NCBI GenBank assembly: GCA_031264185.1 | Contig: JAISEL010000001.1 | Coordinates: forward strand, 1 to 40,157 | Reading direction: 5' to 3' | Length of the DNA: 40,157 bases | DNA from: Deltaproteobacteria bacterium | GTDB lineage: Bacteria; Desulfobacterota; Desulfarculia; Adiutricales; Adiutricaceae | Part shown: piece by piece, positions 4,927 through 34,889 of the stretch | How positions within the stretch are numbered: the stretch's first letter is position 1 | How the letters are laid out: each line of letters begins with the position of its first letter | Notes under the pieces: generated by a model | Seen by the model: the letters and a program-made list of their open reading frames with translations, nothing else | What the model was told of the DNA's origin: nothing | Database searches by the model: none | Program-made: the position numbers and the translations under genes

Positions 4927-5757
4927 CTATTTATTTCTGATTATTACTCTTTCGGCAGATTTGCCAAAAAAATGGTACCCAGAACCGGCCTCACTGATCA
5001 AATCAAGAAGCGCGTCAGGACTGGTTACCATAATACCGGCCAGCACATTCACTCCGCGTTTGAAAAACGCGTCCGGCAACATGCTCGCCGTTGGTCCGCT
5101 GACAATGATTTCCGCCTCAGGCTTGGACATACGCAGCAGATCGGGTAAGGTGTCATTAAGTATGGTTACGCCGGTTATGACCAAAAGGTCGGCTTTGGGT
5201 ACAATTTCGGCCGCCTTTTCAGCAGGAAGAAAATGGGTTAATTCCGTTGGTTTCAAAGTTGAGGGATCCTGCTCCAGAACTCGGAAATCAGCGCCTTTTT
5301 TGAGCAGGCGCTTAAGCATCGGAACCAGAGCCCCAATGACAACAGTCAGCCCGTTTTCCGGGATAGTGGCTTCGTCAAAGGCGTCCTTGCCGGTCACTAT
5401 TTCATACCCAGGAGCAGAGCCAGTCTGCCAGTAAGTTGCGCTTAAAGCGTTCAGGACGGACAAGGCGAGAGCTTTTTTTAAAATATTGGAGCTGAATAAG
5501 TCCTCTAAATATTGGCGAATGGGGCGGTCAGTCAGTTTGCCTGAAAGCGGCATGGCCTGAGCCGAGCTTGGGCAGCAGACAGCCGCCGGTATCTCCTTAA
5601 TTGGCGTGAAGGCCACTCCCCCGAAACCGTTACTGAGTTTGACTCCGCTAAAGAAAAGACCAAAGACCGCTCTTTCCACGGATAACTCATCCAAAAGGCT
5701 GCCTAGTTTCTGTTCGACCAGTTCGACGGTTTCCCGTATGAGTATGTTATTGTTCAA
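4927..5757 (-). CDS. DUF4213/DUF364 protein, putative metal-handling
   Basis: A 276-residue cytosolic protein. Residues about 1-90 (with SNGFGGVAFTP near 45) look like the enolase-N-like DUF4213 domain. Residues about 110-276 form the Rossmann-like DUF364 domain (TVVIGALVPML, ADLLVITGVTILNDTLPDLL, IIVSGPTASMLPDAFF). Structural work on this family suggested a role in heavy-metal chelation; the reaction is not known. The frame is open to a GTG at 5766, but that codon lacks a Shine-Dalgarno site. The TTG at 5757 has AGGTGA five bases upstream, so I use TTG. A possible promoter, TTGACA with a CTTATT 17 bases on, lies just upstream on the minus strand. It is the last gene of the metal-uptake locus. 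Confidence 0.8.
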   Translation of the reverse strand: MNNNILIRETVELVEQKLGSLLDELSVERAVFGLFFSGVKLSNGFGGVAFTPIKEIPAAVCCPSSAQAMPLSGKLTDRPIRQYLEDLFSSNILKKALALSVLNALSATYWQTGSAPGYEIVTGKDAFDEATIPENGLTVVIGALVPMLKRLLKKGADFRVLEQDPSTLKPTELTHFLPAEKAAEIVPKADLLVITGVTILNDTLPDLLRMSKPEAEIIVSGPTASMLPDAFFKRGVNVLAGIMVTSPDALLDLISEAGSGYHFFGKSAERVIIRNK

Positions 5758-5766
5758 GAATTTCAC

Positions 5767-5815
5767 CTTTATTGTTAGAAAATAAGGTAAACATATGACA
5801 TATTGTCAAAATAAA
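5767..5815 (-). promoter_or_regulatory. Candidate promoter of the DUF364 gene
   Basis: On the minus strand a perfect TTGACA is followed after 17 bases by CTTATT, and the TTG start follows about 30 bases later. It suggests the gene can be transcribed separately from the receptor gene 280 bases upstream. The -10 match is weak. Confidence 0.35.
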
Positions 5816-6047
5816 TAATACAAAAAATAAAATGGTGAAGTTTAAATCATTATTGCGTTCAGCCTGATTATGTACAGGGCCTGCCGGACCAGGCCCAAAA
5901 AAGTGAAATAAGCTAAAAAGATTAGAAAGCGTAAAACATTGAGTTTACTAACCACGCTAAAGCAAAACTGAAATATTTACTATACATGCGTTGCAAGTAA
6001 AATGATTTCTGGTACGAGTAATTCTCAAACGTCTCCATTAGACGAAA

Positions 6048-8207
6048 TCAAAAATTGTATGACACGGTGGCGTAGAAATTACGACCTGGATAAGCGTAAG
6101 TATCAGGAATTTTATCTCTATAAGAATAAACTTTGTCAAAAATATTAATAAGATTGACTTTTAGGTTTAGAGAGCTATTATTCGCAAATTCCCAAAGTCG
6201 TTTGGTAAGAATTAGGTTGACAACAGTAGTTTTTCCAAACTCAATGTCATTATAATGCTCATTGGGTCCGGCGTTGCCGCGTCCTGGCAGTCTGAGTCCA
6301 TTGTAGACAAAGTTAAGATTGGCCGTAAAATGCCAATCAAAATGGGCGAATCTCAGGCCGAAATTCATGACAGTGTCCGGCATCCGGGTTATCGGCCACC
6401 ACCATCCGTCCAGACCTGGGCCTCCTTTCTTTATTTGTTCTTCTTTTTTGGTCATGTGAGTCAAATTGAGGTAAGGAGTCAGGGAAAACTTGTCGTAGCC
6501 CATTAATCCGGCGACATTAACGCTTGTTTGGGCCTCGAAACCGGCCTGATAGCGTTTATCCACATTGCGCATGACTCTGCCTGTGCCGTTAGGGTTTTGG
6601 GGAGTTGGATTTGCGTAGTAATAGATATAGATAAAATCGCGGATGTCCTCGAAGAAATAAGTGCCTGACAGATTAAAATGGTCGACTTTTATGTCAAACC
6701 CGATTTCATAGGAATCAGTTTTTTCCGGCTTCAGGCGAGGATCGCCGCCGGCTCCATAGCCTTCGGTGCGGAAGCTGGCAAACAATTGCCGCCCAGACGG
6801 CGCCCGCCAACCTTTAGTGTAATTGGCCCTTAAATTTAACCATTCAACTGGCTGATAACTGACGCCCAGTGACGGCGACAGGCCGCTGAAAGAACGCTTG
6901 GCGGGCAATTGGTCGCGTCTGGTGATGCCCTGGCTGTTAAAATAGGGATATCTGGCCCAGTCTTCATCGCCAACGGATTTGTCTTTCGCTCCGGCTCTTT
7001 CAAATCTTACCCCTCCGCTAATATTTAACTTATCTTCAATTAGTTTAAGTTTACCTGTCAAGTAAGCGCCAAAAATATAGCTTGAGCTGGTATCATGTTT
7101 GGTCATGCGCCAGTTGGTGTTTTGGTAGAATAAGGTATTGGAGTTAGCGGCGTTCTGAACATCGTAGCTAACAAAATCAACGCCTCCGTTCATATCGAAC
7201 GTATCTCCGGAGTAGCTCAAACCGGCTTTGGCCAATTTAGTTTTGACTTCCTGGACTCTTGGATATCGCATAGTGTTGAAAATTTCATGCAGATCGTTGC
7301 TATAACCAACGCTGGAGTTCCAAGACCATTGGCGGTCATCGGTAGAGCCTTCGTAAGTTAAAGTTAGCATTTTTGATTCGCGGTTGGCATAGCTGGCCGC
7401 CTGAACGTCCCCATCATCGTCACGGTAAGACGGCTGATGGGCTTTATCGACCCTGTAGTAAAATGCGTCCAGGCCTATCCGGTGAGTGTTGTTAAAAGTA
7501 TATCCGATGTTCAGGAAAACATTGTCTGTACCTTCGGTCTTAGTGTTGTGCACTTTTCGTCCGTCGCCGTCTTTGTAGTCATCGTCAGTAGCGCTATGCG
7601 TGTATCCTAAATTGTAATCGAAATTATTAGTCAACCCGTTAAGTGAAAGGCCGCTTTTCCAGGCTTTATAACTACCGGCTCCGAACTTGACTGTACCGGA
7701 TAATTGGCTCGGGCCCCCTCGCCTCGTAATAACATTAATGACACCCCCTGGGGAGCCCATAGAATATTTATACATTTCCGGGCCTCGGATGATTTCAACC
7801 CGCTCAACATTATCTAATACGATCTGTCGAGTGCTGGCTATGCCTGAACGGCGTCCGTTAATCAAAATCAGAAGATTGCCGTTTACTTCAGTATTCAGGT
7901 GTTCTGTGCCGAACCCTCGCATAAGGGCTACGTTTTCATCATAGTCAGTTGGTGCAGCCTCGGTGGCGAAGCCTAACTCTGTCAGCAGTTCCGAGAGATT
8001 TTCCGCCATGGATGCCTGAATGATCTTTTGGTCAATGGTGATGTTATTGGTGGTGGCGGATTTCTCTTCTTCAGTGAAATTGGCGGAACGCTCCGCTGCA
8101 ATGACTACGGCTGGTAAATCTTGAGTTGGGCTCTGGGCAAAAGAAGAAACTGAGTTCAACGTACCCAATGCGGCGCTCAAAATTAAGAAAATTGATAATC
8201 GATTCAA
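6048..8207 (-). CDS. TonB-dependent outer-membrane receptor
   Basis: A 719-residue outer-membrane transporter driven by TonB. A signal peptide covers residues 1-24 (cleavage after SSFA), followed by a TonB box-like DLPAVVIAAER. The plug follows, with LMRGFGTEHLN, ILINGRRSG and VERVEIIRGPEMYKY, then GSPGGVINVITRRGG. The rest is beta-barrel with many aromatic turns, ending in YATVSYNF with the terminal Phe expected for barrel assembly. The frame stays open to 8336, but the start is a TTG at 8207: AGGAGG lies seven bases upstream and the signal peptide begins exactly there. It lies between a MoeA-like gene with a FecBCD-type importer and a DUF364 gene, which suggests import of a metal or metal chelate. 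The substrate cannot be read from sequence. Confidence 0.92.
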   Translation of the reverse strand: MNRLSIFLILSAALGTLNSVSSFAQSPTQDLPAVVIAAERSANFTEEEKSATTNNITIDQKIIQASMAENLSELLTELGFATEAAPTDYDENVALMRGFGTEHLNTEVNGNLLILINGRRSGIASTRQIVLDNVERVEIIRGPEMYKYSMGSPGGVINVITRRGGPSQLSGTVKFGAGSYKAWKSGLSLNGLTNNFDYNLGYTHSATDDDYKDGDGRKVHNTKTEGTDNVFLNIGYTFNNTHRIGLDAFYYRVDKAHQPSYRDDDGDVQAASYANRESKMLTLTYEGSTDDRQWSWNSSVGYSNDLHEIFNTMRYPRVQEVKTKLAKAGLSYSGDTFDMNGGVDFVSYDVQNAANSNTLFYQNTNWRMTKHDTSSSYIFGAYLTGKLKLIEDKLNISGGVRFERAGAKDKSVGDEDWARYPYFNSQGITRRDQLPAKRSFSGLSPSLGVSYQPVEWLNLRANYTKGWRAPSGRQLFASFRTEGYGAGGDPRLKPEKTDSYEIGFDIKVDHFNLSGTYFFEDIRDFIYIYYYANPTPQNPNGTGRVMRNVDKRYQAGFEAQTSVNVAGLMGYDKFSLTPYLNLTHMTKKEEQIKKGGPGLDGWWWPITRMPDTVMNFGLRFAHFDWHFTANLNFVYNGLRLPGRGNAGPNEHYNDIEFGKTTVVNLILTKRLWEFANNSSLNLKVNLINIFDKVYSYRDKIPDTYAYPGRNFYATVSYNF

Positions 8208-8436
8208 AATTATACCTCCTAATTCGCGTAAAAATAAAACATCAACTTTAGGACTTGTCAGACATAACTTGGATTCAGGTCTGGTGCCCATGTCCAAAAG
8301 GTAAAGCTCCGGCCGAAAACTGCCCAATCTTGTCATATTCTATGCGGCTCCCTCAGAAGAGGCGGACTCTGCCGCAGCAGGTGTATGGCGGATTTACAGC
8401 ACGATCTTCGCTCATTGAAACCGAAGCGTTAAATTA
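8208..8436 (-). promoter_or_regulatory. 5' leader of the receptor gene
   Basis: About 230 bases between the MITE and the receptor start. On the minus strand it has GC-rich inverted segments (for example GCGGCAGAGTCCGC near 8370) and the AGGAGG site next to the start codon. The length leaves room for a structured regulatory RNA. I could not match it to a cobalamin, molybdenum-cofactor or other known riboswitch. Confidence 0.25.
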
Positions 8437-8525
8437 TTACCTCGGAATTCAGTTCTGAGAATGCTGTAATACTGTTTCTATTACAGGTTTTGAGCTAATT
8501 CTCTTGGAGTTTCGTGCCGTGGTAA
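8437..8525 (+). mobile_element. 89-bp MITE, copy A (IS630/mariner-type)
   Basis: A short non-coding element flanked by TA on both sides (8435-8436 and 8526-8527). Its ends are inverted repeats of the form TTACC(T/A)CGGCAC; the left copy has decayed to TTACCTCGGAATTC. Inside is CTGTAATA-N7-TATTACAG, nested in GAGAAT...ATTCTC, so the whole element can fold into one long hairpin. A second copy of exactly the same length lies inverted at 39701-39789, with about 90% identity (9 differences by my count). TA target duplication is the hallmark of IS630/Tc1-mariner transposition, and IS630 remnants occur in this window. It sits about 230 bases upstream of the receptor start. Confidence 0.85.
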
Positions 8526-8527
8526 TA

Positions 8528-9121
8528 CACCGTTTGGTCGCTGTACGGAGTTTATTGTTATCAAATGCAAATCATTTTATGTTAAAGATTAACACTTCTG
8601 CAGGTTTTATTTATCATCCGTTTGCATGTTTTTCAGGCACTTGTATTTTATTTACAGCGCTTTAATTTTTTCTTCAGTCAGTGGCGATAACTGTACTTGG
8701 CGCTGAGAGACGCCCTCCTTATTGTTTCCGGGCATTCCCCTCGCTATAATAGCTGCTCCTGCCCTAAATCCTGCTGTTCATCGCTCTGCAATCAGGCCAG
8801 CTGAATTGTCAGACTGTTGGCCGTGTGCAGTGTAACAGACTCCTGTGCCCTGAATGATTAAATGTTATGCTTATTCCAATGAGAAGCCCTTAACTCGGAA
8901 TTTGAAGATCTGATGTTTTGCTTTTCCGTCCGGTAAGCAATCAGACAGGACAATATCTCTGTACACCTTCTTATTCGAGCCGCTTTTGGGCTGAATTCCA
9001 AACGGGCCGGAGCGCATGGGGCCAGGAACCATTCATGGCACGTCCATCAGTTATCGCCTGGGCCGATCCTGTCCGGACCCGCCTGAACAGTCAAGTGCCG
9101 AAGTCATCGGTTAAAGCCAGA
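8528..9121. other. Gap between the receptor and MoeA-like genes
   Basis: About 590 bases with no recognised gene. The part from 8900 to 9120 is GC-rich and looks like old coding sequence: minus-strand frames contain protein-like stretches such as KKVYRDIVLSDCLPDGKAK but are interrupted. It may be the remains of a gene that once joined the MoeA-like gene and the receptor gene in one transcript (inference). Confidence 0.35.
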
Positions 9122-10348
9122 TCAGCTTTCTGAATACAAAATTTCCGCTTCAATCACCTCTCCTGCCGGTATCTGCTCACAGCCAATCGGCAAAACAATG
9201 ATGGCGTTGAAACGATTGGTAGCGTCGGCGTACCGCTCATCAAAAGTGATTGGTTCAGCGTAGCAGTTGCTGTTAATGTCACTGAAAAGGCGCAGACGGG
9301 CAAAAAACTCGAATTGCGGTGGTTTTTTTAATGGTTTGGTTAGACTGGCGCGAACGACACGGCGACGGGGACAAGGCAAGCCGTACCAATGGGCCAGTAA
9401 TGGCTTGACAAGCCAATCAACGCCACAGAAGGCCGCGAAGGGTGGCCCCGGGATATTGATGACCGGCTTGCCGTCAATAATAGCCACTGCCATAGGCATG
9501 CCCGGGATCGCTTTAACTCCGTGCTGGAAATAGCTGCCGCGCTTGGCGAGAATTCCGGCCACATGGTCTTCGCTGCCCATGGATGAGCCGCCGTTAATCA
9601 GAACCAAATCACTGGAGTCCAGAGCTTGGATTAGGGTTTGTTCCAATGCTCCTTTATGATCGCCGGTGATGGGAAACGGCACCTGATCCGCCTGCCATGA
9701 AGCGAGGGTGGCGGAAATCATCAGGCTATTTGATTCCACAGTCTGGCCTCTTTGAAGCTTTTGACCAGGCGGAACCAGCTCATTGCCTGTAGGTATGTAA
9801 GCCGCTTTCGGCCTGGAAAGAACCGGAACTTCCGTAACGCCGGCGCTGGCCAGAAGCCCCAAAAGTATCGGGTTAAGCCTGGTTCCCGCAGACATGACCG
9901 TCTCGCTTTCACGGAAAGTTTCGCCGGACTGTTTAACCCTGAGGCCTGCTTTAGCGTCCGGCTCGGATTCCAGGTGAATACGGCCGTCTGCGTCAAAGCT
10001 GACCTTCTCAATATTTATGACCATGTCGAAAGCATCGTCGAAATCGTCGCCCATGTCTGCTGGGGCGTAATCGCGACCCTCCAGCCAATTTGAAGTGTCA
10101 GGCGGACCATTTAAAAAATCAGCCGAACGAACGGCGACACCATCGCCCATCGCCGCCCGGACGATTGGCTGATTAAGCTGGCACGCCAAAGTTTCGGCGC
10201 AAATCCGCCAAATTGCTTCCGGCAGAGCCACGATTTCAGTTCCCGGACTGGGCCTCCATTCTTCGCGCAGAAGTCCCACGATCTCCGATCGTGTAGCGAA
10301 TTTTTCAATGTTAAGATAATCCACGCCCTTACGTTTGTACTCAGTCAA
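9122..10348 (-). CDS. MoeA-like molybdopterin-binding protein
   Basis: A 408-residue protein of the MoeA/gephyrin-E class, which in the classic case inserts molybdate into adenylylated molybdopterin. Visible family features: PTGNELV (186-192), ESNSLM (205-210), ITGD (227-230), INGGSSMGSEDH (251-262), HGVKAIPGMP (276-285) and INIPGPPFAA (297-306). The Asp of the GG.S.G..D loop is kept. The usual 'KPGKP' element reads IPGMP, so both lysines are replaced. The start is the TTG at 10348: GGAGG lies eight bases upstream. The upstream TTG at 10363 has no such site. The start overlaps the end of the binding-protein gene by eight bases (TTGACTGA), so the two are translationally coupled. That ties this protein to the importer rather than to general cofactor synthesis. 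Confidence 0.85.
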   Translation of the reverse strand: MTEYKRKGVDYLNIEKFATRSEIVGLLREEWRPSPGTEIVALPEAIWRICAETLACQLNQPIVRAAMGDGVAVRSADFLNGPPDTSNWLEGRDYAPADMGDDFDDAFDMVINIEKVSFDADGRIHLESEPDAKAGLRVKQSGETFRESETVMSAGTRLNPILLGLLASAGVTEVPVLSRPKAAYIPTGNELVPPGQKLQRGQTVESNSLMISATLASWQADQVPFPITGDHKGALEQTLIQALDSSDLVLINGGSSMGSEDHVAGILAKRGSYFQHGVKAIPGMPMAVAIIDGKPVINIPGPPFAAFCGVDWLVKPLLAHWYGLPCPRRRVVRASLTKPLKKPPQFEFFARLRLFSDINSNCYAEPITFDERYADATNRFNAIIVLPIGCEQIPAGEVIEAEILYSES

Positions 10349-11393
10349 GATATTCCCCTCCAATGATGCCGATCAGTTGAGTATCGTTCATTTCGTATAA
10401 AAAAAAGGTTGAGTAAAAATACCTGATTTCAGCCGCCAGCCTTTCTTTGGGCATTAGCTGCGGATGAAGTTTATGCAAAGCCCACAAGATGGTCAGAGGT
10501 TGCTCCACGGTCCGATTGCCCCAAGTATGTGCCACCGTCGGAATGTAGTGAAAAACGTTGTTTTTGACAGCGGATATGTTTTGAAAATTAACGTTATCCT
10601 TCATTTCCTGGACATCGCGGGGATTCAGGAGAATCATTGCTTCAGGATCCCAGAGCAAAAGATCCTCAATATTGTACCGTAAACTTCCTGTTGTCATGGA
10701 TTGACTGGTGACGCTGCGTCCGCCCGCCTGGGTAATCCACCATTCGGCTATTTGGTGAGGCTGAGTGAATTGAGCCGGATTACCGTAAAGAACCCGCGGT
10801 TTATCGTTTTCGTCCAGGCTGCTGGTCAGGGACTTAGCAAAAGAAATCTTTTGGTCAAAATACGTAAGATATCGTCGGGCTGATTCGGGCTTGTTCAAAA
10901 TCCGGCCCATCAGTTCTACTGCTGCTTTAATGTCATAAACATCCTTCCATTCAAGATAAACGCAGGGTATATTCATTTTTTCCAAACGTTCGGCAATTTC
11001 TCTGGACATTGTCAAACTGATGTCCGGCTTGGCCAGAAGAACATTTTCAATTAAAAGATCCCGGTTCGTCCCTTCAAACAGCGGCCCGTCTTTGATCTGA
11101 GGGGCGAATTCGAGCTGATACCGCCACCTCCCGGTATTGGCAAAAGAGGGCGGCAGACGATTGATTATTTTGGAACCGTCCCCCATCGCTTCCACAAAAG
11201 CGTTTAGAACGCCAACAGCGCCAAATGTTCCGATACTGTTGATCTTTCCGGGCAGGGCAACTTCCCGGCCGGCCATGTCAAATATTTTGCGGGTGGCCTT
11301 TGTTTGGTTATCGCCTGGAGCATTACAATACGTGACCAGAACAAAGATTATGGCCAAATTTATAAACAGAAAATACCGATATTTATTTTTCAT
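10341..11393 (-). CDS. ABC importer periplasmic binding protein (FecB/BtuF/MolA type)
   Basis: A 350-residue periplasmic binding protein of the Fe3+-siderophore/cobalamin/molybdate class (PF01497). Residues 1-25 are a hydrophobic signal (FLFINLAIIFVLV). A Cys follows at TYC, but Tyr before Cys is not a good lipobox, so anchoring is uncertain. The mature part starts with KIFDMAGREVALPGKINSIG, the usual first beta strands. Typical later elements are KPDISLTMSREIAERLEKMNIPCVYLEW, the long linker helix, and IEDLLLWDPEAMILLN. It lies 21 bases downstream of the ATPase gene and overlaps the MoeA-like gene by eight bases. The ligand is not readable from sequence; the neighbour suggests an oxyanion such as molybdate. 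Confidence 0.87.
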   Translation of the reverse strand: MKNKYRYFLFINLAIIFVLVTYCNAPGDNQTKATRKIFDMAGREVALPGKINSIGTFGAVGVLNAFVEAMGDGSKIINRLPPSFANTGRWRYQLEFAPQIKDGPLFEGTNRDLLIENVLLAKPDISLTMSREIAERLEKMNIPCVYLEWKDVYDIKAAVELMGRILNKPESARRYLTYFDQKISFAKSLTSSLDENDKPRVLYGNPAQFTQPHQIAEWWITQAGGRSVTSQSMTTGSLRYNIEDLLLWDPEAMILLNPRDVQEMKDNVNFQNISAVKNNVFHYIPTVAHTWGNRTVEQPLTILWALHKLHPQLMPKERLAAEIRYFYSTFFLYEMNDTQLIGIIGGEYLD

Positions 11394-11414
11394 AAATAAG
11401 TAACATTTATTATG

Positions 11415-12200
11415 TTAATCAATAATTGGAACACAAATTTTAACAGGCTTTCCGGCTGAAATAACCGAGGTTTCAGTAACCACAGCGTTCAATCCGTACA
11501 ACTCAGACAAGCTTTCGCCGGTAATGACGTCTTCTGGACGTCCATCGGCGTATACCTGGCCGTCTTTAATCATTACCAGCCGGTCGGCGACCAGAAGGGC
11601 CTGATCCGGAGAATGGGTAGTCCACAAAACTGTATGGCCTTGACGGGCCAAGGAACGCAAAATCTTTAGTGATCGGGCTTGATTGTAAAAATCCAAATTG
11701 GCCATCGGCTCGTCCAAAACCATCAGACGGGCCTTCTGAGCCAGGGCTCTGGCAATGACCACCAACTGTTTTTCCCCACCGGAAAGACTTTGAAATAAGT
11801 TGCTGGCCAGATGGCCAATCCGCATGATCTCCAGAGCTTTTTCAGCCTCAAAACGATCTTTTCGGCTCGGCGAAGAGCCGAAGCCGAGGTGGGGCAGACG
11901 GCCCATCATAACCACTTCCAAAACGTCATACGGAAAAGTCATGGAAGATGACTGTGGGGCGTAAGCGATCATCCTGGAGCGCTCTTTGGCCGACAGCTTA
12001 AGGATATCTCGTCCAAATAGATCGGTTCGGCCTCCGTCCGGCTTGAGCAGGCCCAGAAGACAGCGCATAAGAGTTGTTTTGCCTGTCCCATTTGGTCCGA
12101 GCAGGGCCAGCACTTCGCCCTGCCGGATATTGAAGGTTATGCCTTTCAATATTTTCCGCAGGGCGGTATAGCCAAAACTGAGATTTTCCACAGCCAGCAT
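11415..12200 (-). CDS. ABC importer ATPase (FecE/BtuD/MolC type)
   Basis: The cytosolic ATP-hydrolysing subunit of a type II importer, about 260 residues. Numbered from the GTG at 12203: Walker A GPNGTGKT at 36-43, Q-loop Gln at 84 (YAPQSS), signature LSGGEKQ at 140-146, Walker B LMVLDEP at 160-166, and the switch His in WTTHSPDQA. The permease stop TGA overlaps the ATG at 12200 by one base (TGATG); a GTG at 12203 would overlap by four. I choose the ATG. The tight coupling to the permease gene and the shared strand mark them as one transporter. Confidence 0.92.
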   Translation of the reverse strand: MLAVENLSFGYTALRKILKGITFNIRQGEVLALLGPNGTGKTTLMRCLLGLLKPDGGRTDLFGRDILKLSAKERSRMIAYAPQSSSMTFPYDVLEVVMMGRLPHLGFGSSPSRKDRFEAEKALEIMRIGHLASNLFQSLSGGEKQLVVIARALAQKARLMVLDEPMANLDFYNQARSLKILRSLARQGHTVLWTTHSPDQALLVADRLVMIKDGQVYADGRPEDVITGESLSELYGLNAVVTETSVISAGKPVKICVPIID

Positions 12201-13243
12201 CACAGCCAGCCTTTTCGGACCCGGGACAGCAGGAACACGAAAATAGGGGCGCCCACCAGACTGGTCAGGACTCCCAACGGCAGCTCGGCCGTCGGAAGTC
12301 CTCGAACAAGGTCATCTATCAGCAATAGGCAAAGGCCGCCAACCCCAAATGATACGGCAAGGAGCCGGGGATAACTGGCCCCCACAATCAGGCGGCATAA
12401 ATGAGGAACTACCAGACCGACCCAGCCAACTATTCCACAGATGGTAACTGAAACAACTGTCATTAATGTCGCTGCCAAAATCACCAGGGATTTTATCAGT
12501 CTGACGTTGACGCCAAGAGTTGCGGCCACGTCCTCGCCAGCTGATAAAGCGTTTATTTGGTAGCGAAACAAAAAAAGTATTCCCAGAGAAACTGAAAGCG
12601 CTGGAAGCATGATAAATACATCCCGGTTGGAGCCACGTGAAAGACTGCCCATTAACCAGAAAACAATTGACGGTAAGGCGCTGTCAGTGTCGGCCAGGAG
12701 TTTTAGAATTGACAGAAGAGCTCCAAAAAGGCTGGAGACAATAACTCCGGCCAGAACCAGGGCGGTCAGTTCCTGACGGCCGAAAATCCAGGCGATCAAA
12801 TAAGCGCCCAAAACGGCGATTAGACCAGAAATGAAAGCCAGCATCTGTATCTGCCACCAGGAAGCGCTGTTAATCATGGCCAGAGCGGCTCCAAACCCGG
12901 CTCCAGCTGATACTCCCAAAATGGCCGGAGAGACCATGGGATTTTTAAACAAAGTTTGATAGGAAACTCCTGATACCGACAAAGCTCCGCCAACTAATAC
13001 TGCCAAAACTACACGCGGCAGCCTGACATTGAGAGCTACTGTTTCCAAAGCAGGATCCCAGTCAGAGACCGCCAGATTCAGCTTGGACAAAAAAATACTG
13101 ACCAGCGTCCCGGAGGGTATAGAAATACGTCCAACACCAAGTGATAAAAATGAGCAAATAATGACTGCTATATATAGTACTGACCAGCGTAATATAAAAC
13201 CGCCATCAGACTTATTGTTTAAAGATGTCGAACGGAAAGTCAC
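12200..13243 (-). CDS. ABC importer permease (FecCD/BtuC/MolB type)
   Basis: A 347-residue inner-membrane permease with about ten hydrophobic helices. Family marks: RLPRVVLAVLVGGALSVSGV, then NPMVSPAILGVSAGAGFGAALA, GWVGLVVPHLCRLIVG in the region that contacts the ATPase, and a C-terminal ELPLGVLTSLVGAPIFVFLL. The start is a GTG at 13243 with no strong Shine-Dalgarno site. It is the first gene of the minus-strand metal locus, with an AT-rich stretch upstream where the operon promoter must lie. FecCD-type importers move iron chelates, haem, cobalamin or, in the MolBCA subtype, molybdate and tungstate. Confidence 0.92.
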   Translation of the reverse strand: MTFRSTSLNNKSDGGFILRWSVLYIAVIICSFLSLGVGRISIPSGTLVSIFLSKLNLAVSDWDPALETVALNVRLPRVVLAVLVGGALSVSGVSYQTLFKNPMVSPAILGVSAGAGFGAALAMINSASWWQIQMLAFISGLIAVLGAYLIAWIFGRQELTALVLAGVIVSSLFGALLSILKLLADTDSALPSIVFWLMGSLSRGSNRDVFIMLPALSVSLGILFLFRYQINALSAGEDVAATLGVNVRLIKSLVILAATLMTVVSVTICGIVGWVGLVVPHLCRLIVGASYPRLLAVSFGVGGLCLLLIDDLVRGLPTAELPLGVLTSLVGAPIFVFLLSRVRKGWL

Positions 13244-14319: not shown

Positions 14320-14354
14320 GAGGGGATATATTTAAGACTTTAAGGAGTTAACTG

Positions 14355-14582
14355 ATGACCAAAGAACAAGTCGAGGCTGTTCTGGGTAAAGTTCGGCCGG
14401 CCCTGGTGGCTGACGGCGGTGATATTCAGCTGGTAGATGTTAAAGACGGAGTCGTTTCCGTGCGCTTGGTCGGGGCTTGCTGCGGCTGCCCCATGGCTCA
14501 GGAGACCTTAAAGCACGGGGTGGAGCGGGTTCTCCGAGACGAGATTCCCGGTATTAAGGAAGTTGTGTCGGTTCCGGCATAA
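14355..14582 (+). CDS. nfu: Nfu-type iron-sulfur cluster scaffold (NifU C-terminal domain)
   Basis: A 75-residue protein that is only the NifU C-terminal domain. Such proteins bind a [4Fe-4S] cluster at a dimer interface and pass it to target enzymes. The sequence has RPALVADGGDIQLVDV and then GACCGCPMAQ, where Cys42 and Cys45 give the CxxC motif. The length is usual for stand-alone Nfu proteins. AAGGAG lies seven bases before the ATG. It stands alone on the plus strand; the trp promoter follows about 60 bases after its stop. Confidence 0.92.
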   Translation: MTKEQVEAVLGKVRPALVADGGDIQLVDVKDGVVSVRLVGACCGCPMAQETLKHGVERVLRDEIPGIKEVVSVPA

Positions 14583-14945: not shown

Positions 14946-16316
14946 ATGATCATACTTAAACAAAAATCCCACCTTTTGGAAAGTGATGTGGCTACCCCGG
15001 TCAGTATCTTTTTGGAAAAGATCGGCAGCCAGAGGTCAGGACTTTTACTGGAAAGCGCCGAGGTGGGCGGACGTTGGGGCCGTTACAGTCTGGTCGGGGA
15101 AGGGGCCCTTTTGACCTTAACCTGCCGGAAGGGCTTATTGGAACTGGAAACAGTTGATCCCCGGCTGGTCCCTCTTCTGGTTTTCCAGGGTCAACCCTTT
15201 CTGGAGGGACTTAGGGCTGTCATGAAGGAAGTCAGTATCGAACCAGATTCTTCGCACGGAGATTTACCGCCCATTACCAGAGCTTTGTACGGCTATCTGG
15301 GTTACGGTCTGGCCGGGCTTATGGAACCTTGTCTGGAACGGAGACTGCCGCCGGAATCGGCCGAGGCCTCTTTGGTTCTGCCGGGTACGGTTTATTTATT
15401 TGACCACGTCTATAATCGGCTGACTGAACTTTCTCTGGGCGGACCGCCCCTGGAACTTCAGGTCCGGCCGCAGTTTCCGGTGGGACCAGACGTTATTACC
15501 AATAATCCCTCCAGAGATGAATTTATAAAAACCGCCCGTCTGGCCCGGGATCTCATAGCCCAGGGGGAACTTATCCAGGTTGTTTTATCGGTCGGTTTTG
15601 AAAAGCCTATGGCCGGCAATGTCTTTGATGTCTACCGAAGACTCAGACGCTTAAATCCCTCTCCTTACATGTTCTACCTTCAGTTACCGGAAATCTGTCT
15701 GGCAGTCTCCTCTCCGGAAGTCTTAATAAGCTGCCAGGAAAACCGGCTGCGTCTGTGTCCCATTGCCGGCACCAGACCCCGGGGCCAGGACAAAGGCGAA
15801 GACGATCTTTTTGAAATGGAACTGGCAGCCGATCCCAAAGAGCAGGCCGAGCACGTCATGCTGGTTGATTTGGGCCGCAACGATTTAGGCCGTATCGCCA
15901 CCCCCGGTTCAGTGGAAGTTCAAAGGTTTATGGAAGTGGAGAGGTTTTCCCACGTTATGCATTTAACTTCCCACTTGGGGGCCGATCTGGCTCCGGGCAA
16001 TGACGCTTTAGAAGTCATTAAGGCCGCTTTTCCGGCCGGAACTCTTTCCGGGGCACCTAAAATCAGAGCCATGGAACTTATTTCCGACCTGGAAAGAGCC
16101 GACCGGGGGCCTTACGGCGGCGCTATCGGCTGGCTGGGGTTGGACCGGGTCGAGGTTAATTTAGATCTTGGTATCACCATCCGGGGTCTGTGGGTCCGGC
16201 AGGGCAGAGCTTACTGGCGGGCCGGAGCCGGAATTGTCTACGATTCTGAGCCGGTTCGGGAGTGGACGGAATGCCTGAGTAAGGCCGCTGCGGTTAAATC
16301 TGCCCTGACTAATTAA
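14946..16316 (+). CDS. trpE: Anthranilate synthase component I
   Basis: The chorismate-binding subunit, which makes anthranilate with the glutaminase subunit. It has 456 residues, slightly short for the family. The N-terminal LLESAEVGGRWGRYSLVG region carries the LLES element that binds tryptophan for feedback inhibition. Catalytic-domain marks: ELIQVVLS, SPSPYMFYLQL-like NPSPYMFYLQ, SSPEVL, CPIAGTRPRG, LVDLGRNDLGR, AGTLSGAPKIRAMELI and GGAIGW. The ATG at 14946 follows TTAGGAG. It is the first structural gene after the attenuator, with trpGD 15 bases downstream. Confidence 0.96.
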   Translation: MIILKQKSHLLESDVATPVSIFLEKIGSQRSGLLLESAEVGGRWGRYSLVGEGALLTLTCRKGLLELETVDPRLVPLLVFQGQPFLEGLRAVMKEVSIEPDSSHGDLPPITRALYGYLGYGLAGLMEPCLERRLPPESAEASLVLPGTVYLFDHVYNRLTELSLGGPPLELQVRPQFPVGPDVITNNPSRDEFIKTARLARDLIAQGELIQVVLSVGFEKPMAGNVFDVYRRLRRLNPSPYMFYLQLPEICLAVSSPEVLISCQENRLRLCPIAGTRPRGQDKGEDDLFEMELAADPKEQAEHVMLVDLGRNDLGRIATPGSVEVQRFMEVERFSHVMHLTSHLGADLAPGNDALEVIKAAFPAGTLSGAPKIRAMELISDLERADRGPYGGAIGWLGLDRVEVNLDLGITIRGLWVRQGRAYWRAGAGIVYDSEPVREWTECLSKAAAVKSALTN

Positions 16317-16331
16317 AAAGGAGAGACGGCC

Positions 16332-17936
16332 GTGTTACTTATAATTGATAATTACGATTCTTTTACCTACAATCTGGCTCAGGCCTTTCAGGGTCTGGGT
16401 CAAAATCCGACTGTGGTCCGAAACGATGCCTGCAACCTTTTGGATTTGGCTGAAAGTCAGGAATTGGACAAAGTCTGTCTTTCTCCGGGCCCCGGACACC
16501 CCAAAGGAGCCGGGCTGAGCCTGGAGTTTCTGGAAAGACTGGCTAAAAGAGCCAAACCGGTGCCGGTTTTGGGAGTCTGTTTAGGTCATCAGATCTTAGG
16601 GGAATTTGCCGGAGTTCAGGTCATCGTGGCCGACCGGGTCATGCACGGCCGCACTTCGCCCATTACCCATGAAGCCGAAGGTCTTTTTGCCGGACTGCCC
16701 CAGAACATGACTGTGGGCCGTTACCATTCTTTATTGGTGACCGAACCTCAGCCCGGCCAGAGATACGGTTTTAAGGTTACGGCCCGGACCCCGGAAAACG
16801 AGATCATGGCTTTAGCCTACAATGATCTGCCCTGGTCCGGGGTCCAGTTTCATCCGGAATCGGTCTTAACGCCCCAGGGCCGGAACCTTTTGGGTAATTT
16901 TTTAGTTGGACCGGGCGCACCCCAGACTCCGGCTGCCGAGACTCCAAGACCTATTTCGGAGATCTTTGAGGCTTTAGGCTTAGGTGCGGATCTGACCGAG
17001 GAGCAGGCGGCCCAGGTTTTTGAACGGCTCATGAGTGGGGAAATGACAATGGCTCAGGCCGGAGCTCTTCTTCTGGCTCTCCGGACAAAAGGGGAGACAC
17101 CTTTGGAAGTGGCCGCAGCAGCAGAGGCTGTCCTAAACCGGGCTCAGATGGTTCCTCCGGTTGAGGGAACCGTTTTGGATGTGGTGGGCACAGGAGGCGA
17201 CAACCGCTTTTCCTTTAACTGCTCCACGGCTACAGCCATTACCTGTGCGGCTATGGGTTATCAGGTCTTAAAACACGGTAACCGTTCGGTTTCGTCCAGG
17301 TCCGGCAGCGCTGATGTCCTGGAAAGACTGGGCTTTAATATAGAACTGCCGGTTACGGAAATTCCGGACACTTTAGCCAAAAGTAATTTTGTCTTTCTTT
17401 TCGCTCCCCAGTATCATCCGGCTTTTAAGCATATAATGCCTGTCAGAAGGGAACTGGGGGTCAGAACTTTATTCAATATTTTAGGGCCACTCGTCAATCC
17501 GGCCCGGCCTACCCACCGCTTGATAGGTGTCTACCGGCCGGAACTTTTGGATCTCATGGCCGGAGCTTTAGCCCGTTTAGGTTCAGTTACGGCGGCCGTG
17601 GTCCACGGGGCCGGCGGCTACGACGAACTGACCACCATAGGTCCGGCTCAGGTCAGGCTTGTTTATAATAATAAAATCGAAAAAGCTGTCTTTGATCCAA
17701 GAGATTACGGTTTGGCTGAAGCCAAACCGTCTGACCTGACTATTAAAGATCCCACAGACGGGGCCAGGGTTTTAAGGTTGCTTCTGACCGGTAAAGGATC
17801 TGAACCCATGCGGGATATGCTGATATTTAACGTGGCTGCGGCCTTTTTCCTTCTGGACGGCGGGACGATGGAGGCGGCGGTAAAAAAAGCCCGAGCAGCT
17901 GTCGAATCTGGCGTTGGCCGGAAACTGCTGCCCTAG
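16332..17936 (+). CDS. trpGD: Fused anthranilate synthase glutaminase / anthranilate phosphoribosyltransferase
   Basis: One 534-residue protein for two steps. Residues 1 to about 193 are TrpG, a class I glutamine amidotransferase: DNYDSFTYNL, Cys83 in GVCLGHQ, and His174/Glu176 in VQFHPES. Residues about 208-534 are TrpD, which adds phosphoribose to anthranilate: GTGGD at 286-290, KHGNR at 314-318, and SSRSGSADVLE. The linker is short and Pro-rich. The start is GTG 16332 with AGGAG eight bases upstream. The GD fusion is known from enteric and other bacteria. All expected catalytic residues are present. Confidence 0.95.
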   Translation: MLLIIDNYDSFTYNLAQAFQGLGQNPTVVRNDACNLLDLAESQELDKVCLSPGPGHPKGAGLSLEFLERLAKRAKPVPVLGVCLGHQILGEFAGVQVIVADRVMHGRTSPITHEAEGLFAGLPQNMTVGRYHSLLVTEPQPGQRYGFKVTARTPENEIMALAYNDLPWSGVQFHPESVLTPQGRNLLGNFLVGPGAPQTPAAETPRPISEIFEALGLGADLTEEQAAQVFERLMSGEMTMAQAGALLLALRTKGETPLEVAAAAEAVLNRAQMVPPVEGTVLDVVGTGGDNRFSFNCSTATAITCAAMGYQVLKHGNRSVSSRSGSADVLERLGFNIELPVTEIPDTLAKSNFVFLFAPQYHPAFKHIMPVRRELGVRTLFNILGPLVNPARPTHRLIGVYRPELLDLMAGALARLGSVTAAVVHGAGGYDELTTIGPAQVRLVYNNKIEKAVFDPRDYGLAEAKPSDLTIKDPTDGARVLRLLLTGKGSEPMRDMLIFNVAAAFFLLDGGTMEAAVKKARAAVESGVGRKLLP

Positions 17937-18080
17937 GGAATGTTTTTAAGATTTTTGGCTTTTACTTGAGTGACTTTTGCAATCACCCTAGCAAAGGCCG
18001 GGCCTGACAGCAGCCCTGGAAGAATACCGGGCGGCCTGCTTTTAAGAGCACCGGCGGACCGGCCAAGTTCAGCAGGTCAA

Positions 18081-18098
18081 GATTCGGTGTCCCGAATC
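18081..18098 (+). repeat. Hairpin between trpGD and trpC
   Basis: GATTCGG and CCGAATC form a seven-pair stem with a four-base loop. No T-run follows. It lies within the 573-base gap between trpGD and trpC and upstream of the duplicated leader block. Confidence 0.35.
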
Positions 18099-18229
18099 GC
18101 AGGCATTGGATGATGTCTGCATCGGTCAGGCAGTCAGCGCATCAGTTCGGAAAAGTCGACTTTGATGAACGTCTGCTGCGGGCGGGAAATATCAGCGGAC
18201 CGGACTTTAAAGTTACGGCCGGCCAGGAG

Positions 18230-18509
18230 GCTGTCTGCCTGGATTCAAAAGAGTATTTTGGTTCCGAACCGGAGACCTGGTTCTGGCTGCCGGACCGGAA
18301 TGCCGGCAGGCCGGAATTCACCCCGAACAGGTGACCGCCCGGCATTCCTGGTCATTTAACTGGTCAAAGGCGCACGGCCCGCCGTTTTTTATAAATACGG
18401 CCGCCTGATTTAGAGAGCGGAAAGACGGACAATTTGTTTCTAAAATAAACTTCAGGAGGCGGTGTCGCTTCCCCGGCCTTTCGGCTGCGGGGGTACGCCG
18501 AAGAGCCGG
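18230..18509 (+). promoter_or_regulatory. Duplicated leader block A, before trpC
   Basis: This block and block B (19500-19789) share patches in the same order: GGTTCCGAAC(C/A)GGAGACC (18260 and 19529), (A/G)CGGCCGCCTGATT (18397 and 19670), TTGTTTCTAAA (18433 and 19708), TTCAGGAGGCGG (18451 and 19730), a GC hairpin, then ACGCCGAAGAG.CGGATGA running into the ATG. AGGAGG lies 50 bases before the ATG, with the hairpin in between. A frame at 18110-18334 is not convincing as a gene. The block may control trpC expression or be the trace of a duplication. Confidence 0.6.
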
Positions 18510-19316
18510 ATGAATAAACCTTCAGGCGATTTAGTTAAATTTTTTGAGGCCAAGAGAGAAGAAATTGAGGCCCTTACGGCCAATCCGCCTGCCGGAAGAT
18601 TACCTGGCCCGGTCCCGTCCGTACGGCCTGATTTTCTGGCAAGTTTAAAAAACGGCCGGCAGACAAGAGGTCTGGGGCTGATTGCGGAGTATAAGAGAGC
18701 TTCCCCCAGTTTAGGCGATATAGATCTGACTTTGGAACCATTGGGAGCGGCCCGGGCTTACCGGGCGGCCGACGCCATATCGGTTTTAACTGAGGAGAAG
18801 TATTTTAAAGGGCACCTCAGTTATTTGGAAATAATGGCTGAAGCTGAAATACCTCTTCTCCGGAAAGATTTTATTTTTCACCCCCTGCAGATTGTCCAGA
18901 CTTCGATTACAATGGCTTCAGCCGTGCTGTTGATTGTCAGGTTGACCCCGGAGGCTGGCTTATTGCAGGAACTCATTTCCCTGGCTTCATCCTTTGGCCT
19001 CCGAGCGGTAGTGGAAATTTTTGAACCTGATGAGCTGAAATTGGCCAGACAGGCCGGGGCAGAGATAATTCAGGTCAACAGACGGGATCTGAAAACTTTA
19101 AAAATTGACCCGGACAGGTCGGCAGAGATTATAAAAAAATATCCGCCTTTAGATAACGAGTTCTGGATTGCGGCCAGCGGCTTGTCGAAGCCTGAGGAAC
19201 TGGTCCGGGTCCGGGACTTAGGTTTCGGGGCGGTCTTAGTGGGGACGGCTTTAATGAAGTCAGGTCAGCCCCAAGAGGCCCTTCGAAAATTAACACAAGA
19301 CATGGCTGTCCATTAA
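18510..19316 (+). CDS. trpC: Indole-3-glycerol-phosphate synthase
   Basis: It closes the indole ring from CdRP. It has 268 residues from ATG 18510; the frame is open to a GTG at 18462, which sits only two bases after AGGAGG and is a poor start. TIM-barrel marks: IAEYKRASPS (Glu60, Lys62), ISVLTEEKYFKG, LLRKDFI (Lys119), VVEIF (Glu169) and VNRRDL (Asn190). The last strand reads AASGL where the family has AESG(I/V), so the glutamate equivalent to Glu210 of the Sulfolobus enzyme is Ala222. The GAD before VLLI is also changed to MAS. The protein is otherwise whole. It is preceded by leader block A and separated from trpFB by 473 bases. Confidence 0.92.
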   Translation: MNKPSGDLVKFFEAKREEIEALTANPPAGRLPGPVPSVRPDFLASLKNGRQTRGLGLIAEYKRASPSLGDIDLTLEPLGAARAYRAADAISVLTEEKYFKGHLSYLEIMAEAEIPLLRKDFIFHPLQIVQTSITMASAVLLIVRLTPEAGLLQELISLASSFGLRAVVEIFEPDELKLARQAGAEIIQVNRRDLKTLKIDPDRSAEIIKKYPPLDNEFWIAASGLSKPEELVRVRDLGFGAVLVGTALMKSGQPQEALRKLTQDMAVH

Positions 19317-19499
19317 GTGTTAAAATGCTCTTCATTGGGATTTTGATTTGGGATTTTAGGTTTTTTCCTAAGCTTTCTGGGGCAATTAATTTGCCCACTC
19401 GGGATAAGTATTTAACTTTTTCCCCAAGAAAGTAAAATAAGGGTCAATGTCGATCACTCCCAGCTAAAGCAGGTGGGTTGCAAAAGTCCTGGGCTGACC

Positions 19500-19789
19500 G
19501 CAGAAGGCGGCAGCCGAAAATGGCTTTGGGTTCCGAACAGGAGACCCGGCTCGGTCTTGCGTACCGAAAGGCCAGCAGGCCTGGAGTAGTCCCGGACGGG
19601 AGGCTGTTCGGACTTCCAGTTCATCTGGCCGGCCACAGGCACTCCGGCCGGTCACCGCTGCCATTGAATGCGGCCGCCTGATTCAGAGGCCGGCCGGATC
19701 GGATACTTTGTTTCTAAATCAAACTAAATTTCAGGAGGCGGCGGATCCTTCCCGGCCATTCGGCCGGGGTTTTTACGCCGAAGAGTCGG
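19500..19789 (+). promoter_or_regulatory. Duplicated leader block B, before trpFB
   Basis: Homologous to block A before trpC, with the shared patches given there. Here the hairpin between AGGAGG (19733-19738) and the ATG is perfect: CCCGGCC-ATTC-GGCCGGG (19751-19768), followed by TTTTT (19770-19774). It therefore looks like an intrinsic terminator placed just before the start codon. In both blocks the bases before the ATG read in frame as TPKSR, so the blocks are alike right into the coding start. Confidence 0.6.
19751..19774 (+). terminator. Terminator-like hairpin directly before trpFB
   Basis: A seven-pair GC stem with a four-base loop and a run of five T. It lies between an AGGAGG site and the trpFB start, so transcription stopping here would prevent trpFB and trpA expression. 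It may be a second attenuation point. The block A counterpart has a weaker stem and no T-run. Confidence 0.5.
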
Positions 19790-21646
19790 ATGAAAACAAA
19801 AAAATTTTCGCCTGAGTCTATGGTCAAACCGGTCATTAAGATTTGCGGTCTGACCGGACGCCTGGACGCAGCCAGCTGTACCCGGTTAGGGGCCGACTTA
19901 GTCGGGTTTATTTTTCATCCCCCGAGTCCCCGCTCGGTCGAACCGCTCCAGGTCAAGCACTTAAAGACTCCGGGCTGTTTTCGGGTCGGGGTTTTTATCA
20001 GCCAGAAGGCTCCGGAGATTCTGGCCGTTATGGACCAAGCCCAGCTGGATTTAGCCCAGTTGCACGGGGAGCAGGATTTAGAGGATGCCAGGGCCGTCGG
20101 ACCGGAACGGGTCATTAAAGTCTTCTGGCCGGAACGCTACGAAGATAAGGCCGAACTGGCTGCCGAAATGGAAAAATGGGCCCCTGCGGCCAGTCTGTTT
20201 TTATTTGATTCCGGTACCTCCGGCGGCGGACACAATCGGAAAATCGGTTCTCTGGCCGGTCTTAGCCGGTCGCCTAAGCCGTACCTTTTGGCCGGGGGGC
20301 TGACCCCGGAAGATTTGAGCCGGTACTGGCCCAACAAAGATCCCATGTTTTTAGGTCTGGATTTTAATTCTGGAGTGGAAATAAGGCCAGGAGTCAAAAG
20401 CCGGGAGGCTATCCAAAATTTGATGGCAGCTCTCGTCAGGGTGTCAGACAAGGATGCGGGCTCAATGAAAAAAAGTCCTATGGCCGGTTATTTCGGCGAG
20501 TTCGGCGGACAGTACGTGCCGGAAGTTTTGATGCCGCCTCTGGAGGAACTTGAAGAGGCCATGTCGGTTATCAGGCCCACCCCCGGGTTTCAGGCTGAAC
20601 TGACTTACCTTCTGACGCAGTATGCCGGCCGGCCGACTCCTTTGACCCGCTGCCCGAAGCTGTCCGAGGAACTGGGTTTATCTATCCGCTTAAAGAGAGA
20701 AGACCTGCTCCATACCGGCGCTCACAAGATAAATAATACTCTGGGCCAAGCTTTGCTGGCCAAAAAAATGGGCAAAACCGAACTGGTGGCCGAAACAGGA
20801 GCCGGACAGCACGGAGTGGCCACAGCTACGGCCGCAGCCCGGCTTGGACTTAATGCGGTCATCTTTATGGGCGAAGTGGACGTGGTCCGCCAGAAGATGA
20901 ATGTTGAACGCATGAAACTTTTGGGCGCCAGGGTTATAGCTGTTAAAGACGGCACCAGGACTTTAAAGGACGCCATTAATGAAGCCCTCCGCTACTGGCT
21001 GACAAATCAGAAGACGACCCACTATTGTTTCGGTACTTCGGCCGGTCCTCATCCTTTTCCTACTTTAGTCAGGGATTTTCAGGCTATTATAAGCAAAGAG
21101 GCCAAAGAGCAGTACTCCAATGTGGTGGGCCGGCTGCCGGATGTGGTTGTGGCTGCAGTCGGCGGAGGTTCCAACTCAATCGGGGCTTTTGCAAACTTTA
21201 TTTCCTCTAAAGTCAGGCTGGTCGGGGTGGAAGCGGCCGGTTCCGGTGAAATCGGTTGCTACAATTCCGCTCCCATCAATCTGGGCCGGTTAGGCATTCT
21301 GCACGGCCAGAGGTCAATGCTCCTTCAGACCCGCGACGGTCAGGTTCTGCCTTCCCATTCTATTTCAGCCGGTCTGGATTATCCGTCTGTAGGTCCAGAG
21401 CACGCTTATTTACATTCCATCGGCCGGGTGGAGTACGGTCTGGCCAACGATCGGGAAGCTTTGGAGGCCTTTATGACCTTAACCAGGACCGAGGGGATTA
21501 TCCCGGCTTTGGAATCCAGCCACGCTTTAGCCTGGGTCATAAAAAATAAAGACCGGCTCTCTTTGGGGGCGGAAGTTATGATCTGTCTTTCCGGCCGTGG
21601 TGACAAAGATTTAGAAATTGTTCTGGAAAATCTTAAAGTTGACTGA
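19790..21646 (+). CDS. trpFB: Fused phosphoribosylanthranilate isomerase / tryptophan synthase beta
   Basis: A 618-residue bifunctional protein. Residues about 13-215 are TrpF: the general base Cys19 in KICGLT, the general acid Asp140 in [10 protein letters not shown], and LAGGLTPED. Residues about 226-618 are Trp[14 protein letters not shown], the PLP lysine Lys313 in [25 protein letters not shown] for the PLP phosphate, and SGRGDKD near the end. The junction is a short linker with a Met at 226 that may mark the old TrpB start. Start: ATG 19790; a Met at residue 11 is an alternative. No frame break was found between the halves. trpA follows 35 bases downstream. Confidence 0.95.
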
Positions 21647-21681
21647 TTGATTTTTAGTTTTTCAATAAGGATGCCCATATT

Positions 21682-33636: not shown

Positions 33637-33643
33637 AAGAAAA

Positions 33644-34873: not shown

Positions 34874-34889
34874 AAAGACCTCTGTTTTT

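Follow-up and report, generated by a model that had tools for sequence, protein, structure and literature searches.

The closest described counterpart of the transport system considered here is MolBCA, a FecCD-type importer that carries molybdate and whose binding protein, MolA, binds both molybdate and tungstate (PMC4031551). Other components discussed below have also been connected with these metals. A fusion protein, MoeA-PBP, co-occurs with the tungstate-binding protein TupA (PMC11733289), and, as pointed out in 2010, the DUF364 family is associated with transporters of molybdenum, tungsten, vanadium or iron (PMC2954201). In a survey of molybdenum-using bacteria, 278 out of 3,683 had no known molybdenum transporter, from which its authors concluded that further uptake systems may exist (PMC6147048).

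Here, we analyse a stretch of 40,157 nucleotides (hereafter, the window) from the genome of an uncultured anaerobic bacterium of the family Adiutricaceae (assembly GCA_031264185.1, contig JAISEL010000001.1), which is contig 147 of a 4.4-Mb host genome. On its minus strand, from position 13243 down to 4927, six reading frames follow each other in the order FecCD permease, ATPase, periplasmic binding protein, MoeA-like protein, TonB-dependent receptor and DUF4213-DUF364 protein. This locus is probably an acquisition and delivery system for molybdenum or tungsten. All six frames were confirmed by a reading-frame check and Pfam matches, so that the grouping of these families in one locus, pointed out in a preliminary description of this DNA, holds.

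Organisation of the Locus

The first gene (12200–13243) codes for a FecCD-type permease of a type II importer (PF01032, 275 bits), and is followed by that of the ATPase (11415–12203; PF00005, ABC_tran, 110 bits), with a probable ATG start at 12200 that overlaps the permease stop by 4 nt. After a gap of 21 nt comes the gene of a MolA/YiuA-like periplasmic binding protein (10341–11393; PF01497, Peripla_BP_2, 49 bits). The divergent MoeA-like protein, named MoeAx (9122–10348, in a frame open to 10363), contains MoCF_biosynth and MoeA_N domains (66 and 63 bits), with MoeA_C scoring 21.5 bits, slightly below its cut-off of 22.1. The eight-base overlap of its gene with that of the binding protein, already noticed in the preliminary description, is real if translation starts at TTG 10348, behind a GGAGGGG site. 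The first four genes are coupled in a single operon.

For the receptor gene (6048–8207, in a frame open to 8336), the more likely start is TTG 8207, behind AGGAGG, and the gene product combines β-barrel and Plug domains (PF00593 and PF07715, 131 and 45 bits) with a signal peptide that can be read from the sequence. The last gene (4927–5757, in the open frame 4927–5766), more likely starting at TTG 5757, encodes the DUF4213-DUF364 protein (PF04016, DUF364, 144 bits; PF13938, DUF4213, 65 bits). An inverted-repeat search upstream of the operon and of the receptor and DUF364 genes revealed no convincing operator; most of the repeats found are AT-rich and lie in the long upstream region.

MoeA-Like Proteins and Their Neighbourhood

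A family alignment of the MoeA-like protein was scanned against named bacterial genomes, which yielded 157 relatives, and 80 loci were kept. In the tree, these proteins form a clade apart from canonical MoeA1 and MoeA2 (support 100/100) that spans five or more phyla. Against the NCBIfam MoeA equivalog models, with cut-offs of 440 to 560 bits, the window protein scores 229 bits or less. A residue census was made at positions 59, 142, 188, 228, 259 and 282 of E. coli MoeA, which we take to be active-site positions. All 80 sequences have the equivalents of D59, E188, D228 and D259. Asp is rare at position 142, and Arg takes the place of the PGK lysine (282) in most of the family, with Met or Leu there in Adiutrix. 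The active-site set is incomplete in the window protein, which carries neither D142 nor the PGK lysine. Given these residue, clade and equivalog results, we do not claim membership of MoeA itself, and the residue pattern fits a protein that would still bind the pterin substrate but receive its metal by different means. Of note, four loci (L075, L076, L077 and L078) hold MoeA-like relatives with 36–38% identity in the alignment, adjoining genes resembling alanine racemase and argS and no transporter gene.

In 31 loci from several phyla, 5 kb or more can be seen on either side of the MoeA-like gene, and in 21 of them a FecCD permease is encoded no more than 5 kb away from it; the chance expectation for such a stretch is about 5%, given 18 full FecCD matches in the 4.4-Mb host genome. 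Of 79 loci, 15 have DUF364 no more than six genes away from the MoeA-like gene, and 12 have one particular S-adenosylmethionine-dependent methyltransferase at such a distance. The co-occurrence that the preliminary description had proposed to survey is thus borne out. In a metagenome-assembled genome (MAG) of the Synergistaceae (L122), DUF364, FecCD, ATPase, binding protein and MoeA-like genes stand in one row. In a Burkholderiales MAG (L146), the MoeA-like gene is flanked by MOSC, ExbB and TonB genes on one side and by a window-type DUF364 gene (192 bits) on the other, an independent Gram-negative case linking TonB energy to the MoeA-like/DUF364 set. Molybdenum-related genes near the relatives include a fusion of a MobA-like protein with a LysR-type helix-turn-helix domain, XdhC, a molybdenum hydroxylase and FmdE. 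The unlabelled neighbours give a diffuse Pfam list in which MobA-like, XdhC and TOBE are the only repeated molybdenum-related families, and haem, siderophore and corrin families are absent from the commonest neighbours in the Pfam tally.

With regard to the class of the host, which is represented by 63 genomes, the MoeA-like protein (67–70% identity) is complete in only two further genomes, G011 and G005, and a partial copy lies at a contig end in G003. Horizontal transfer of the gene is suggested by this patchy occurrence and by the nearest outside relatives, which come from Bacillota, Eggerthellaceae and Synergistota. In G005, which belongs to the same genus, a single 5.7-kb contig carries ATPase, binding-protein and MoeA-like genes facing DUF364 and the same receptor, and a window-type permease (492 bits), adjoining nfaDK-like genes, is encoded at the end of a second contig; in G011, a window-type DUF364 gene stands beside tonB at a contig end. 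The gene grouping therefore goes beyond chance, being kept in G005 and, for DUF364 and tonB, in G011. On contig 123 of G011 (L071:2583-5439), genes resembling cysteine desulfurase, selD and yedF, identified by eye, precede the operon.

A Molybdenum/Tungsten Cofactor Riboswitch on Sister Operons

The RNA element RF01055 governs genes of molybdenum/tungsten cofactor metabolism (PMC2408646). Structures of FhuD and of nitrogenase are among the references of that description, whose supplement may therefore already list genes of these kinds downstream of the element. Rfam searches found it seven times in the MoeA-like loci, six times directly before the operon: before a FecCD gene in L117 (740-879, gene at 923), L169 (6742-6888, gene at 6908) and L180 (170-387, gene at 520), before the MoeA-like gene at 8828 in L119 (8569-8700), before a nifH-like gene at 1492 in L121 (1270-1444) and, on the minus strand, before a methyltransferase-FecCD-ATPase-binding protein series in L120 (9611-9762). 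The seventh copy, in L138, is not upstream of a MoeA-like operon and was left uncounted. Five of the six genomes with riboswitch-led operons have just one to three copies of the element overall, so this placement is not due to chance. By comparison, no cobalamin riboswitch was found in the 36 relative loci searched, where the molybdenum cofactor riboswitches occur.

The FecCD-Type Importer

The window encodes together all parts of a type II (FecCD/BtuC) importer, namely, the FecCD permease, the ATPase and the Peripla_BP_2 protein; according to Pfam, the ModB-type permease and SBP_bac_11-type binding protein that characterise ModABC, WtpABC and TupABC are not its components. In the permease tree, the window protein falls in a clade of nine sequences (support 100/100) together with those of L114, G005, L116, L117, L119, L121, L122 and L149. 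The permeases of L116, L117, L119, L121, L122 and L149 are all linked to MoeA-like genes, and those of L117, L119 and L121 lie directly behind the riboswitch. The 11 other FecCD proteins of the host genome included in the tree all fall outside this clade, and E. coli BtuC is distant from the window permease, whose best NCBIfam match is the BtuC model (206 bits against a cut-off of 461).

In the binding protein, the motifs QPHxIxEWW and AHxWGNRTxEQPLT are conserved in the alignment, and the strictly conserved residues H213, E217, W218, W219, H289, W291, R294 and E297 could form the walls of a cleft that holds an anion or a chelate. The AlphaFold model of this protein (mean predicted local distance difference test score, 81) gives as top fold matches two structural-genomics entries, 4hn9 and 4ovk, for which the listing names no ligand. 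The best structure of known ligand is MolA, with a Z score of 26.3 over 296 residues to 3psa, and a profile match with an E value of 1e-20. YiuA and CeuE follow with Z scores of 25.5 and 24.2, and haem proteins with about 19. A comparison with MolA, BtuF and FhuD had been proposed earlier; the last two are not among the top 50 fold matches, which proves nothing by itself.

The Outer-Membrane Receptor and Its Relatives

The closest relatives of the receptor share 37–40% identity with it, come from the same genus or family, and mostly lie directly before other FecCD-ATPase-binding protein sets. In four genomes, including that of the host (contig 160), a protein of 263 to 270 residues without a visible signal peptide is encoded between the receptor relative and the FecCD permease (L246:3402-4214, L247:6497-7294, L252:8133-8924 and L253:7705-8499). 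Its Pfam match is SBP_bac_11 in the three proteins scanned, and its best NCBIfam match in the two scanned is the tungstate-binding protein WtpA, with 107–108 bits, below the cut-off of 243. TonB or ExbB genes are present in two of these clusters. Since these apparently leaderless WtpA/ModA-like proteins adjoin the receptor relatives, the receptor family is tied to molybdenum or tungsten handling by a second, different cytosolic protein.

DUF364 and Nitrogenase-Like Partners

The window DUF364 protein represents a distinct subfamily, sharing 42–76% identity with its close relatives and less than 30% with the other DUF364 proteins of the host in the alignment; its relatives in the Protein Data Bank (PDB) are 3npg and 3l5o. 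The host genome (G000) carries three further DUF364 genes on contigs 40, 60 and 81 (L081, L083 and L082, respectively). Of these three, one is beside fmdE, one is near genes resembling selB, selD and yedF, and another adjoins a methyltransferase-like gene and a TonB-ATPase-FecCD-binding protein-receptor set.

In seven loci (L116, L117, L119, L120, L121, L149 and L172), nifH-, nifD- and nifK-like genes are present in or beside the operon, for instance at L117:4025-7159, L121:1492-5906, L119:13046-16173 and L120:11231-14467. In L117, the NifH-like protein reaches 329 bits against CfbC and 325 bits against NifH, below both cut-offs, and the D/K-like proteins match NifE weakly. Window-type DUF364 (at least 190 bits) was found only in loci without the NifHDK-like set. 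Among the closest relatives, window-type DUF364 is found in loci of Adiutrix, Synergistaceae and Burkholderiales, and the NifHDK-like set in those of Eggerthellaceae and Bacillota, with a tendency to replace each other. Our guess is that they are alternative means of freeing the metal from its carrier.

Other Features of the Host Genome and of the Window

In addition to the window locus, the host genome carries ModA/ModB genes on contig 13, a ModA-like/ModB-like pair on contig 135, and two further MoeA proteins encoded side by side on contig 110, one of which has the length of a MoeA-PBP fusion. It also encodes two molybdopterin-binding enzymes. These further MoeA proteins, ModA/ModB and the two enzymes indicate that the host uses molybdenum or tungsten, and with ModA/ModB and a second ModAB-like set present, the window locus would be an additional route. 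The phylogenetic profile of ModB is uninformative, ModB-like genes being found in all genomes of the family.

Elsewhere in the window, the plus strand carries a tryptophan operon with fused trpG-trpD and trpF-trpB genes (14946–22515) and, between it and the importer operon, a gene for a small NifU-like domain protein (14352–14579). A corrin (vitamin B12) synthesis cluster on the minus strand (31044–36005) comprises cbiD, cbiG and three tetrapyrrole methylase genes.

Proposed Function and Alternative Explanations

We propose that the TonB receptor would take the cargo into the periplasm at the expense of the proton gradient, this cargo being molybdate or tungstate, a thio-form or, more likely, a small molybdenum or tungsten chelate. 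The MolA-like binding protein would collect it, and the FecCD-type ATP-binding cassette importer would carry it to the cytosol, where the MoeA-like protein might direct the metal to molybdopterin or to some related acceptor; DUF364 would probably bind or break down the carrier. A chelate or thio-complex is favoured because bare oxyanions are thought to pass porins, and it is a scarce or bulky form that would call for a TonB receptor. The TonB-driven molybdate/tungstate or metal-chelate system envisaged in the preliminary description thus gains support from the co-occurrence, the MolA fold, the riboswitch and the WtpA-like pairing; conserved pairing with haem, siderophore or cobalamin genes, set beforehand as what would speak against it, was not seen in the relatives, which show the WtpA-like pairing and the molybdenum/tungsten cofactor riboswitch instead. 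As a doubtful extension, a class-wide route of anaerobes for chelated or thiolated molybdenum or tungsten can be imagined, in which a TonB receptor (in Gram-negatives) and FecBCD would import the complex, DUF364 or a NifHDK-like ATP-dependent reductase would free the metal, and a special MoeA paralogue would insert it in place of molybdate.

Several observations weigh against the assignment to molybdenum or tungsten. About a third of the fully visible MoeA-like loci have no FecCD permease, and MoeA-like relatives in G014, G016, G021 and G022 stand beside alr/argS-like genes, without a transporter. No RF01055 was found in the window, where the Rfam search, including a permissive one, gave nothing beyond a chance match; this absence says little, since none of the 37 genomes of the family carries the element. 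Moreover, riboswitch control is a link to cofactor status and not to the cargo itself. MolA is only slightly ahead of the iron-siderophore protein YiuA and the fold match is not exclusive, and the best NCBIfam subfamily of the receptor is that of haem receptors (TIGR01785), with 180 bits, below the cut-off of 317.

The receptor gene starts 915 nt past the end of the operon, and the DUF364 gene 291 nt past the end of the receptor gene. Because of these gaps, the receptor and DUF364 genes may be on transcripts separate from that of the operon. They might then be mere neighbours with another task, beside a FecBCD-MoeA-like importer of molybdenum or tungsten, as the Gram-positive relatives, which work without a receptor, could also suggest. 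We consider this rather unlikely, since both genes stay by the operon in G005 despite rearrangement, ExbB, TonB, MOSC, MoeA-like and DUF364 genes are found together in the Burkholderiales MAG, and receptor relatives directly precede other FecBCD sets. It is less probable still that the locus serves ordinary uptake of iron as ferric siderophore or haem, with the MoeA-like and DUF364 genes as accessory or chance neighbours. Iron chelates are the most frequent cargo of FecBCD importers and TonB receptors, and the fold matches to YiuA and CeuE and the subfamily of the receptor point the same way, but this explanation accounts poorly for the riboswitch before sister operons, the recurrence of the MoeA-like linkage across phyla, the WtpA-like partners of the receptor relatives and the lack of siderophore and haem genes among common neighbours.

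The NifHDK-like genes of the seven loci, and the nfaDK-like genes adjoining the FecCD gene in G005, raise another prospect, that of substrate or cofactor supply to a nitrogenase-like enzyme whose making depends on molybdenum, the riboswitch reporting cofactor demand and not cargo. Such genes are not found near most MoeA-like/FecBCD loci, nor in the window or L122, and the known role of MoeA homologues is the insertion of metal into molybdopterin, so that we give this prospect little credence. Nitrogenase-like proteins also include tetrapyrrole reductases, and import of cobalamin or another corrinoid or tetrapyrrole could be read from their presence beside some relatives, from the BtuC match of the permease and from the corrin synthesis cluster at 31–36 kb of the window. 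This is the most improbable of the explanations considered, given the absence of cobalamin riboswitches from the 36 relative loci searched and the distance of E. coli BtuC in the tree. We rejected the argument from the cbi genes to cobalamin import, as these genes lie more than 17 kb away, beyond the tryptophan operon. The reading that we retain is thus that of molybdenum or tungsten acquisition and delivery.

Comparison with Known Systems

No described TonB-dependent molybdenum/tungsten system or MoeA-like paralogue family was found in the open-access literature searched, and a search for a paper that names PDB entry 9HRJ gave nothing useful. Members of the MoeA-like/FecBCD family occur in anaerobes of the gut, that of termites included, among them Eggerthellaceae and Clostridia. 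The family is a concrete candidate for missing molybdenum uptake and offers a genetic handle on DUF364 and on the nitrogenase-like group, both tied to molybdenum or tungsten by riboswitch control or neighbourhood.

Compared with MolBCA (HI1470-1472) of Haemophilus influenzae, the window importer is of the same FecCD/BtuC-fold type II, and its binding protein is predicted to adopt the MolA fold. However, the two binding proteins are only about 18% identical, and the window importer would belong to this class by fold only; in addition, it is linked with MoeAx, DUF364 and a TonB-dependent receptor. The MoeA-like protein has the same domains as MoeA, MoeA1-PBP and Glp (gephyrin family) and, like all 80 sequences of its family, shares their four acidic active-site residues, but it belongs to a separate clade, lacks part of the N-terminal region as well as D142 and the PGK lysine, and is coupled to a type II importer; the MoeA-PBP/TupA link is a parallel to this coupling on another scaffold. 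With regard to DUF364, the described member Dhaf4260 (PDB 3l5o) is a two-domain protein like that of the window, which differs in being of a distinct subfamily next to TonB parts; links of DUF364 to MoeA-like proteins and to the riboswitch are not mentioned in the consulted part of the 2010 report (PMC2954201). Group IV nitrogenase-like enzymes (Cfb, Mar and Isr) have NifH/D/K-like counterparts in sister operons, and none in the window. ModABC, WtpABC and TupABC are presumed to handle the same metals, and a WtpA-like protein stands beside the relatives of the window receptor, but these systems use other permease and binding-protein families and have no outer-membrane receptor.

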